Below are positions 1,851 through 5,699 of a stretch of DNA of 61,623 bases, piece after piece. Each line of letters begins with the position of its first letter. The first letter of the stretch is position 1. Location of the stretch: assembly GCA_012837645.1 (NCBI GenBank), contig DUQU01000018.1, positions 1 through 61,623 on the forward strand, read 5' to 3'. The translations under genes and the position numbers were made by a program. The notes beneath the pieces are model-generated. The model was given only the letters and a program-made list of their open reading frames with translations. It was not told the DNA's origin and searched no databases. This DNA comes from Acholeplasmataceae bacterium (GTDB taxonomy: Bacteria > Bacillota_I > Bacilli_A > Acholeplasmatales > UBA5453).

Positions 1851-3167
1851 TTAATCATCATCTCTTTCTGTAACACTGTTAAATTTTGATTGACTTTTTT
1901 GAAATTTAAGTTTAAATCTTCCTGTTTGACCTTGTCTGTTTTTAGCAATACTAACTTCAATAATATCTTCTAAATCAGGAACCTCATACATAAACATCAC
2001 GATATCAGCATCTTGCTCAATCGCTCCTGATTCTCTGAGGTCAGCCAACACCGGAATTTTTTCTCCTCTTTTTTCAATATCTCTTGAAAGCTGCGATAAA
2101 GCTAAAACTGGTATCTCCAATTCGCGAGCCATCAATTTTAATCCCCTCGATATTTCAGCAACATTCTCTTGTCTGTTAACACCGGGTTTACTTTCAGTAA
2201 TCAATTGTAAATAGTCAATAATAACAAAATCTAAATTACCTTCCTGTTTTAACTTTCGACATTTAGCTCTAATATCATTAACTTTAACTGTCGCGGTATC
2301 ATCAAAATAAAGTTTATAATTGTTTAAGGCTGCCGATGCAGCATTAATATCATGCCAGTCATTGGGCGTTAATCTGCCAATTTTAATCAATCTATTATCA
2401 ACCATACTTTCAGCAGAAAGCATTCTACTAACAAGCTGTTCATTTGACATTTCTAAAGAGAAAATCGCTACTCCTGCTTTTCCATCTTTATTGTTTTTAC
2501 AAATTTGTAAAGCCAAGTTCATCGCGAAAGCACTTTTCCCAACCCCTGGTCTCGCTGCCAGAATAATTAATTCTTCATTTTGAAAACCTGATGTTAAAAA
2601 ATTCAATTTACCAAAGCCAGTATCTACTCCAGTAACATCGGTTTCAGATCTTCTTATTTCAGCTTTTTTTCTTACTTCTACTAAAATTTCTTGAATATTT
2701 AAAAATTCTCCAGCTCTTCTTCTCCTAATTAATTTTAAAATTAACTCTTCTGCATAATCAACGTAATCAATAGTTGAAATAGTAGGGTTAAAGCCATCTT
2801 GGTGAATTTTAGCTGTTACTTCAATCATCGCTCTTTTTAAGGAGTACTCTTTAACAACTTCAATATAAGCATCTAAATGTGTAATGGTGGGCGTAAAATC
2901 GACAACATGAGATAAATAATCAACACCTACTTGCTTCATCACATTTAAAGAAGCTAACTTAACTGAAACAGTAGTAAAGTCAATTTTTTGATCTTCATCA
3001 AGTAATAAAATTAGTGCTTTATAAATGTTTTTATGTTTGATATCATAAAAATCATTGAGTTCTAATTTGTCTCTGACAGTCGCCACAACTCTGGTATCTA
3101 AAAAACAAGCACCTAAAACTGATTTTTCCGCATCCAAATTATGGGGCATTATTTTTGCTTCGTTCAT
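1851..3167 (-). CDS. dnaB: Replicative DNA helicase DnaB (DnaC of Bacillus)
   Basis: This hexameric 5'-3' helicase unwinds the replication fork. The 438-residue protein has the N-terminal helical domain (PHNLDAEKSVLGACFLD) and a RecA-type ATPase domain. Walker A is AARPGVGKSAF near residues 204-214, the Walker B region is DFVIIDYLQLI near 320, and the motif KNRQGQTG lies near the C-terminus. No intein is present. The ATG lies one base after the stop of the gdpP-rplI gene, so the two are coupled, matching the B. subtilis order gdpP-rplI-dnaC. Transcription ends at the hairpin shared with dps. Confidence 0.97.
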   Translation of the reverse strand: MNEAKIMPHNLDAEKSVLGACFLDTRVVATVRDKLELNDFYDIKHKNIYKALILLLDEDQKIDFTTVSVKLASLNVMKQVGVDYLSHVVDFTPTITHLDAYIEVVKEYSLKRAMIEVTAKIHQDGFNPTISTIDYVDYAEELILKLIRRRRAGEFLNIQEILVEVRKKAEIRRSETDVTGVDTGFGKLNFLTSGFQNEELIILAARPGVGKSAFAMNLALQICKNNKDGKAGVAIFSLEMSNEQLVSRMLSAESMVDNRLIKIGRLTPNDWHDINAASAALNNYKLYFDDTATVKVNDIRAKCRKLKQEGNLDFVIIDYLQLITESKPGVNRQENVAEISRGLKLMARELEIPVLALSQLSRDIEKRGEKIPVLADLRESGAIEQDADIVMFMYEVPDLEDIIEVSIAKNRQGQTGRFKLKFQKSQSKFNSVTERDDD

Positions 3168-3168
3168 A

Positions 3169-5613
3169 TTATACCTGTTTTTCTAAAACATTAATCTCAA
3201 ATTGGGCTTTTACATCTCTCGCTAAAGTTACAGTAGCGGTATAAATGCCAATAGAATTAATTTCACTTGTTAACTCAAGTTTTTTACGATCAAATTCGAT
3301 TCCATGTTGTTCTCTAAATGCATCTGTTATTTGTTTAGTCGTCACGCTACCAAAAAGTTTTCCATCTTGACCTAAATTGATAAAAACATCGACTGTTTTA
3401 GACTCAATTTCTTTTTTCAGTTTCTTCATCAACAGCAAATGCTCTCTTTCTTGGACAATTAATAATTCCTTTTGAGCCTCTATCTTTTCAATTTCCTCTG
3501 CGGTTGCTAAAATCCCTTTATTAGCTTTTATTAAATAATTACCATAACCATTAGGGACATCAATAATTTCATCCTTTTTTCCTTTTCCTTTAATATCTTC
3601 CAATAAAATAACTTTCATAATTTCCCCACTTTCATCTAATTCTCGCATTAAAATATTTTTAAGATCACTATAAACCTGATCAATTGACTTTTCTTTTACT
3701 TGCGTCGCGGCACTGTTTAAATGTCCGCCACCACCCATCTCTTCCATAATGAGTTGAACATTAATATGGTCATAACTACGAGCACTAATTCCAATTGCAT
3801 CTTCACTAACTCGGGCTATTGTAAAAGAAGCATTAACACCTTTAATATCTAAAAGTCTTTCACTAACTTGAGCTAAGAGTGTTCGATCTCTAATAATATT
3901 ACTACGATCAATAACAACTCCAGAACCTTTAACCGGGCTAATTACTTTACTAACCAATTCATTTGTTAAAAGCATTCTCTCTTTGTCTTCTCTTAACCAT
4001 TCTTTTACTTTTGCACTAGATGCTTCATACTCTTTTAAATAACTCGCTGCACCAAAAGTGCGGGAACCTGTTCGATACGTAAAATCGTTAGTATCCACTA
4101 AAATACCACCATACATCGCCGAGGCTTCTAATGGCGTTAACTCGATGTCGCTAGCATAAAATTCCATCATTTCTGCAATCAACTCAACACTACTAGAGGC
4201 ATAAGGCTCAACATAATTAAATTGTGCTTTAAAAGATTCTTCACTTTGACGATGATGATCAATGTTAGCGACCTTACTAGCTTTTTGATATAATTCTTCA
4301 GAAGCAACAATGCTAGGTGACTGCGTATCAACAATAACTAATAAAGTTTCCGCAGATATTTTTCCTAAGGCACTCTTAATATCCACAAAAGCATTAACAA
4401 TTGGTAACTTTTCAGCTTTAAAATCTTTCACAATTTTCATAACCGTTTCATCTATTTCCGTCTCATCAACCACAACAAAAGCATCAACTTTACTAAACAA
4501 AGCCATTTTATAAATACCAATCATCGCTCCAAAGGCATCAATATCAGCATTTTTATGAGCCATAACGATAACATTCTTAGCGGCTTCGATTAACTCTTTA
4601 AAATTTTGCGATTGAATTCTAACTTGAACTCTACTACTCTTTTCAGAAGCATTGCTTTTACCTCCAAAATAGGCAATCTTTTCATGCTGAACATTAACAA
4701 CAACTTGATCGCCCCCTCTTTTTTCAGCTAGTTCAATGGCATTTTGAGCTAAAGTGCCTAATTCTTCATAATTAGTGTCATAACAACTAATCCCGATAGA
4801 GGCGCTAATTCTAATTCGGTGCTTAGTAGAAATCTCTCTAATTTTATTTAAAACATCAAATTTATCTGCAATTGCATTTTTTAACTCTTGATAAGAAAAT
4901 ATTACCATCATTCTATCTTCGGTATAAAACTTTAAATAACCTTTGTGTTCACTAACCCAATCAGTAATAACACCTAAATATTCACCTTTAATATTGCTTT
5001 TTTCATAAATGTCATAATTTTGTAAAGACTCTTCAACATTATCTAAATAAATAATTCCTAATGCTGTTAATTGGTTTTGATATTGCCGTTTAATTTTTTC
5101 TCTTTCGCTCACATCAAACATATAAATAACTTGGTTTTTATCATTATGGATTAAATCATATTCTTTCTTATCAATAGTAATTGTTAAAACCTTTTTGTCA
5201 TCATAAACAAGTTCTACTAATTCAGAACTTAAGTCGGCCAATCTTGCGTTTTCTAATTGTTTTTCTAAAAAGACAGTTTCTGCAAATTTATTATGCCAAT
5301 GAACATATAAGGTCTCCTTTTCATAGATGATTATCCCTAAAGGAAGCTCATTAAAAGCTTCATCACCAATTTTATTAACATGATAGGACAAACTACTCCA
5401 AGCCGTTAATCTTTTTTCTAAACGTCTCATTTTCAAAGTCCTTTGATAATTGATTATAAAAGAAACAACAGCGACATTTAAAGCAAACAAAAAAGCAAAC
5501 ACAAAAAAATAAGCATTAGCTCTCCCATCAATAAAGAATTTATTTAAAATCCCATACACTAGTACTAAGACAAATAATATCAATGATATTACAAAGACTA
5601 AAATTCTTTTCAT
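3169..5613 (-). CDS. gdpP/rplI: Fusion of cyclic-di-AMP phosphodiesterase GdpP and ribosomal protein L9
   Basis: One 814-residue frame joins two proteins that are normally separate neighbours. Residues 1-665 are GdpP: two N-terminal membrane segments (about 3-23 and 34-54), a PAS-like domain, a degenerate GGDEF domain ending in EKRGGDQVVV, and a DHH/DHHA1 phosphodiesterase with D357-x-D359, D429, D452-H-H454, D508 and GGGGH (627-631). GdpP degrades c-di-AMP at the membrane. Residues 666-814 are a full L9 starting MKVILLEDIKGKGKKDEI, with N domain, long helix and C domain. No stop codon separates the two parts. The L9 start is an ATG at 3616-3618 with GGGGA just upstream, so internal initiation could also make free L9. 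An extended -10 precedes the gene. Confidence 0.93.
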   Translation of the reverse strand: MKRILVFVISLILFVLVLVYGILNKFFIDGRANAYFFVFAFLFALNVAVVSFIINYQRTLKMRRLEKRLTAWSSLSYHVNKIGDEAFNELPLGIIIYEKETLYVHWHNKFAETVFLEKQLENARLADLSSELVELVYDDKKVLTITIDKKEYDLIHNDKNQVIYMFDVSEREKIKRQYQNQLTALGIIYLDNVEESLQNYDIYEKSNIKGEYLGVITDWVSEHKGYLKFYTEDRMMVIFSYQELKNAIADKFDVLNKIREISTKHRIRISASIGISCYDTNYEELGTLAQNAIELAEKRGGDQVVVNVQHEKIAYFGGKSNASEKSSRVQVRIQSQNFKELIEAAKNVIVMAHKNADIDAFGAMIGIYKMALFSKVDAFVVVDETEIDETVMKIVKDFKAEKLPIVNAFVDIKSALGKISAETLLVIVDTQSPSIVASEELYQKASKVANIDHHRQSEESFKAQFNYVEPYASSSVELIAEMMEFYASDIELTPLEASAMYGGILVDTNDFTYRTGSRTFGAASYLKEYEASSAKVKEWLREDKERMLLTNELVSKVISPVKGSGVVIDRSNIIRDRTLLAQVSERLLDIKGVNASFTIARVSEDAIGISARSYDHINVQLIMEEMGGGGHLNSAATQVKEKSIDQVYSDLKNILMRELDESGEIMKVILLEDIKGKGKKDEIIDVPNGYGNYLIKANKGILATAEEIEKIEAQKELLIVQEREHLLLMKKLKKEIESKTVDVFINLGQDGKLFGSVTTKQITDAFREQHGIEFDRKKLELTSEINSIGIYTATVTLARDVKAQFEINVLEKQV

Positions 5614-5634: not shown

Positions 5635-5643
5635 ATTATATCA
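5635..5643 (-). promoter_or_regulatory. Extended -10 promoter of the gdpP/rplI-dnaB operon
   Basis: On the minus strand the sequence TGATATAAT gives a TATAAT at 5640-5635 with an upstream TG, an extended -10. It lies about 20 bases before the start codon. The -35 region is poor. A T-rich inverted repeat around AGCTTTT lies just upstream. Confidence 0.6.
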
Positions 5644-5699
5644 CGAGAAAAAGCTTTTTAAAAACTTTTAAAAGCTAAAAAATAGCTCTTTACTTGATA

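Follow-up and report, generated by a model that had tools for sequence, protein, structure and literature searches.

A predicted nested dual-start gene for GdpP and ribosomal protein L9 in Acholeplasmatales

In other Firmicutes, gdpP, rplI and dnaC are neighbors whose frames are separate and either overlap or abut. The first two genes are cotranscribed in S. pyogenes, where the second is named rpl9 (PMC3711813), and in S. gallolyticus the ribosome-binding site (RBS) of rplI lies within the last 69 bp of gdpP (PMC6398277). The locus described here, on the minus strand of a 61,623-nucleotide stretch of Acholeplasmataceae DNA (the window), shares this gene order, but its gdpP and L9 coding sequences form one frame.

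Bacterial genes with internal in-frame starts, such as that encoding initiation factor IF2, give an N-terminally truncated product. The GdpP-L9 gene would share with them the use of two starts in one frame and a nested C-terminal product. It would differ from them in that a complete ribosomal protein, which has its own gene in relatives, is nested within a membrane enzyme of another pathway.

The GdpP-L9 fusion is itself already known. As the original prediction had allowed, it has been annotated elsewhere, as NCBIfam family NF011110 (PRK14538), named "putative bifunctional signaling protein/50S ribosomal protein L9"; in the literature covered, we found no paper describing the fusion or its proteomics. 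The window protein matches NF011110 over amino acids 31 to 813 with 874.4 bits (cutoff, 707), and the full-length domain order of the two is identical. The name of the family implies one bifunctional protein, whereas our comparison points to an internal start and includes lineages with a split L9, neither of which appears in the family definition as shown.

The fused gene in the window

Positions 3169 to 5613 of the minus strand read as one intact frame of 814 amino acids, GdpP followed by a full L9, which is free of stops throughout and ends with the stop codon at positions 3169 to 3171. This frame and its six Pfam domains, all above their cutoffs, bear out the claim that a complete GdpP runs into a complete L9 across a stop-free junction. 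Helices are predicted at amino acids 2 to 23 and 30 to 89 in an AlphaFold model, upstream of the PAS domain (Pfam PAS_GdpP, amino acids 79 to 168, positions 5110 to 5379). There follow a degenerate GGDEF domain (Pfam GGDEF_GdpP, amino acids 188 to 312, positions 4678 to 5052), a DHH domain (amino acids 347 to 504, positions 4102 to 4575) and a DHHA1 domain (amino acids 576 to 654, positions 3652 to 3888), the last two located by Pfam and alignment. The catalytic motifs of the DHH domain are intact: the protein carries HKNADIDA, VDTQSP, IDHHR and VDTNDF, and GGGGH lies in DHHA1. Residues D357, D359, D429, D452, H453, H454, D507, GGG (628 to 630) and H631 are invariant in our alignment, so that the full set of DHH catalytic residues seen originally is indeed present. 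The protein also matches the cyclic-di-AMP phosphodiesterase structure 9n0l in the PDB (E = 5.6e-81). This order of PAS, degenerate GGDEF, DHH and DHHA1 domains, together with the catalytic motifs, identifies the N-terminal part as a predicted GdpP c-di-AMP phosphodiesterase; the same genome has one DAC-domain (diadenylate cyclase) gene, the product of which is predicted to make c-di-AMP.

Following the last DHHA1 helix is a linker, defined by alignment and model as amino acids 659 to 665 (positions 3619 to 3639), which varies in sequence within the family and is mostly unstructured in the model. The low confidence of the model (mean pLDDT, 75; pTM, 0.39) does not permit conclusions on domain packing, and near the junction we used it only for secondary structure. 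The L9 module, which is also the predicted free L9, has 149 amino acids (positions 3169 to 3618), with both its N domain (Pfam L9_N, amino acids 666 to 710) and its C domain (L9_C, amino acids 730 to 810) complete; it matches TIGR00158 (ribosomal protein L9) with 101.3 bits against a cutoff of 58.6, covering positions 1 to 146 of 148. The genome (1.27 Mb in 65 contigs, with a completeness estimate of 100%) contains no second L9. From this sole-L9 status and the conserved residues G24, Y25 and G90, we infer that the window L9 is a component of the 50S subunit. A search for viral relatives found none.

The gene for a replicative DNA helicase of the dnaB/dnaC type (positions 1851 to 3167, minus strand) starts 1 nt after the L9 stop codon and is the ancestral neighbor in the gdpP-rplI-dnaC order (PMC6398277). 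Upstream of gdpP lies a promoter-like site (positions 5635 to 5662, minus strand; TTTAAA, 16 nt, TATAAT, with TG before the −10 element), which is a consensus match only, in a region where such sites occur in chance number.

A candidate internal start at L9 codon 1

Codon 1 of L9 is an ATG at positions 3616 to 3618 of the minus strand (amino acid 666 of the fusion), as read from the locus and the alignment. A Shine-Dalgarno (SD)-like element, the GAAAGTGGGGA region, lies at positions 3623 to 3632 and has a contiguous GGGG(A) core; the originally proposed ATG and upstream GGGGA (positions 3623 to 3627) are thus where they had been placed. By consensus the element is among the weaker ones, with a match to AGGAGG of just 4/6 and a bulge in the duplex. 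Its duplex energy is −10.9 kcal/mol, calculated with an assumed standard anti-SD sequence, since we did not find the 3′ end of the 16S rRNA in the assembly. The median at the first ATGs of window genes is −9.1, and the L9 site beats about four-fifths of these ATGs; only 2 of the 336 internal ATGs in the window reach −10.9, the L9 site itself included. An L9-only promoter inside gdpP was also considered and rejected, since promoter-like sites there do not exceed the chance number.

We fetched 180 loci and compared 155 fused genes, which are mutually related and hence not 155 independent observations. At L9 codon 1, 135 of the 155 have ATG and 20 have GTG, with nothing else found, and all 20 valine cases are GTG even though GTG accounts for 10% of the valine codons in these genes. 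The duplex energy at the L9 start averages −10.4 kcal/mol, compared with −2.4 at 2,948 other in-frame ATGs, and a match of at least 5/6 to AGGAGG is present at 126 of 155 L9 starts but at only 1.2% of the internal control ATGs. The SD at the fused L9 start equals in strength the SDs of L9 genes that stand alone, which lie at about −7 to −13. When we resampled codons synonymously, so that the amino acids were preserved, the mean was −9.3 and the median P value was 0.45: most of the SD strength is explained by the Gly/Glu-rich residues of the linker, and codon choice adds little. Because the linker residues largely set its strength, the SD energy argument alone is not decisive, and we do not take codon choice by itself to prove the SD. 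The internal-start argument is carried instead by the duplication cases described below and by a difference in codon register, in that the SD is read as Gly-Gly codons (..GGE..) in some families and as Glu-Glu codons (..KEE..) in others, which implies that the nucleotides and not the residues are conserved.

RNA at the L9 start is more open than average by about 2 kcal/mol, but 28% of positions are equally open, so that reduced structure is only mildly supportive of initiation there. Taken together, the conserved start codon and SD predict a nested gene with initiation at L9 codon 1 and a free product, and they lend strong support to the internal start that had been offered only as an alternative source of L9.

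Eight phytoplasma-type loci (L088, L089, L221, L224 to L226, L230 and L232; L-numbers are our labels for loci) have a weak SD (−5 to −6) and keep the ATG. The weak SD may reflect weak SD use in reduced genomes.

Tandem L9 genes and the probable role of each start

In two unrelated lineages, five genomes in all, the fusion is followed directly by a second L9 gene that stands free: L096 (genome G014) and L097 (G132) in family f3, which are among the 155 fused genes, and L243 (G414), L244 (G408) and L249 (G416) in family f9, which are outside that set (G-numbers are genomes, and f-numbers are working family labels). These loci amount to two natural experiments. The free copies have an ATG start and an SD of −8.3 to −10.6, whereas all five fused copies are without an SD (−1.5 and −2.1 in G014 and G132; −0.1, −2.8 and −2.8 in G408, G414 and G416). 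The start codon of the fused copy is lost in three of the five, codon 1 being AAG or ACT in the f9 lineage. The loss of SD and start codon from fused copies that sit beside a free L9 gene suggests that the internal start is maintained only as long as no other source of L9 is present.

Residues G24, Y25 and G90, of which G24 and G90 are near-invariant in L9, are lost in all five fused copies but kept in all five free copies, and among 30 well-conserved L9 columns, 10 to 12 are changed in the fused copies, as opposed to 3 to 5 in the free copies. This loss of ribosomal-type residues in two lineages speaks against ribosome tethering as a conserved role of the attached domain. The fused frames of all five genomes are nevertheless still open. 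By the NG86 method, applied to two pairs only, fused L9 has a dN/dS of about 0.11 between G014 and G132 (dN, 0.086; dS, 0.75) and of 0.33 between G414 and G416 (dN, 0.17; dS, 0.52), and the corresponding values for free L9 are 0.13 and 0.16. The open frames and these ratios imply that the tethered domain was still under some selection after the free copy arose.

The linker bears on the same question. By Fitch parsimony, about 530 residue changes have occurred in it, alongside which mutational opportunity predicts about 47 nonsense changes (25 within the last 8 to 9 codons), and none of the listed Acholeplasmatales genomes has separated gdpP and L9 genes. Since fusion was the criterion for inclusion in the fused set, the force of the argument lies in the order-wide tally. 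The missing stops suggest that the full-length product matters, with family f14, described below, as a warning of possible reversal.

If L9 were made solely as the C-terminal domain of GdpP, tethering ribosomes or coupling c-di-AMP turnover to translation as the original prediction first envisaged, a single continuous frame, open throughout Acholeplasmatales, and the lack of a second L9 in the genome would be expected. Such an arrangement would limit L9 to the level of a membrane signaling enzyme, and it leaves unexplained why L9 codon 1 is invariably ATG or GTG and is preceded by a strong SD, and why SD or start codon are lost solely beside a free L9 gene; we regard it as very unlikely, and the conserved internal RBS and start codon point to free L9 in addition. 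Release of L9 by proteolytic cleavage, for which the short and mostly unstructured linker might seem suited, is just as improbable, given that the linker residues are highly variable and that cleavage needs neither an SD nor GTG over other valine codons. A sequencing or assembly error that removed a stop codon, which finds a basis in the draft status of the assembly and in nothing else, can be dismissed with near certainty: the same open frame recurs in nearly all L9-bearing Acholeplasmatales genomes, single-contig assemblies included, which refutes for the group the idea of a stop hidden by a base error at the junction.

A more serious alternative is that only the internal start matters and that the tethered L9 is a neutral, functionless read-through tail. 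One frame change would suffice to create it, and in relatives the 3′ end of gdpP already holds or adjoins the L9 RBS. Set against this are the 25 to 47 linker stops that were expected where no separated genes were seen in the order, and the purifying selection on fused L9 after the free copy arose in G014 and G132, and likewise in G414 and G416. One family, f14, does have separate genes amid fused families, which may represent a reversal. On balance, we consider a functionless tail unlikely.

We therefore favor a nested dual-start gene, in which ribosomal L9 would come mainly from the internal start, as the probable arrangement. Initiation at position 5613 would yield the full-length, membrane-anchored c-di-AMP phosphodiesterase with a C-terminal L9 domain, and initiation at the internal ATG, with its own SD, would yield free L9 to supply the ribosome. 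That both proteins are made and that the free L9 is the ribosomal form, like any function of the tail, we infer from sequence comparison. The internal start would be retained because no other gene supplies L9; the tethered domain would be a by-product, one that has acquired or is able to acquire a role of its own in GdpP. Since the open frame is also kept, the tethered L9 probably has, or readily gains, a nonribosomal role, for which stabilizing GdpP, localizing it or binding RNA are guesses. Tentatively, and with rather more doubt than conviction, the tethered L9 could be a true working domain, the fold of a ribosomal protein co-opted by a c-di-AMP enzyme. Lineages with a separate L9 would then have shed ribosome-type residues from the tethered copy, leaving a dedicated nonribosomal module, and in the remaining lineages one sequence would do both jobs via two starts.

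Because databases name one bifunctional protein, annotation probably misses the real ribosomal L9 in a whole clade that includes Acholeplasma relatives and phytoplasmas. The gene would also be a clear evolutionary example of selection that maintains both starts within a single frame, in which the two natural replacements indicate what each start serves, and it opens to direct testing the long-standing question of why gdpP and rplI stay linked.

Distribution and origin of the fusion

The search for the same fusion in related genomes that had been proposed as a check found it in nearly every L9-bearing genome of Acholeplasmatales. An L9 match turned up in 153 of 160 genomes of the order, and the L9-bearing frames listed are ~790 to 870 amino acids long, except at contig ends, in second (free) L9 copies and on the small draft contig of G113, where the GdpP part is shortened yet still joined to L9. 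Within the same class, the genes are also fused in sampled members of families f9, f16, f19, f23 and f24, and L9 is separate (~150 amino acids) in sampled members of f8, f10 to f12, f14, f15, f17 and f20 to f22.

In these separate-gene relatives, rplI either abuts gdpP or overlaps it in a different frame, with gaps of −29 to +15 nt, which supports the suggestion that the fusion arose from neighboring genes that lost their separation. When the frames became continuous, the L9 RBS would already have lain within the 3′ end of gdpP or next to it, and the present fused state would have followed from a shift of frame, or the loss of a stop, that left the SD in place.

In a GdpP tree, Acholeplasmatales form one clade and f14, with its separate genes, groups with fused families, although the deep split has low support. 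This placement would mean either a reversal of fusion or more than one fusion event. At the f14 loci (L138 to L140), the GdpP frame is only 324 to 351 amino acids long, about the size of DHH-DHHA1, and a separate L9 abuts it. G238, a 97% complete genome of family f9 from the genus of G408 and G414, yields no match for L9 and just a distant one for DHH; both gdpP and L9 may possibly have been lost.

Frames of ~1,264 to 1,289 amino acids had suggested a three-way GdpP-L9-DnaB fusion, which we rejected as a counting artifact of the search, since the DNA itself has a TAG stop with dnaB behind it in the same frame in several genera. At seven loci (L004, L005, L015 to L018 and L024), dnaB follows the TAG of L9 in the same frame, so that one stop separates GdpP-L9 from DnaB, and this TAG often lies within a purine-rich stretch ahead of the dnaB start.
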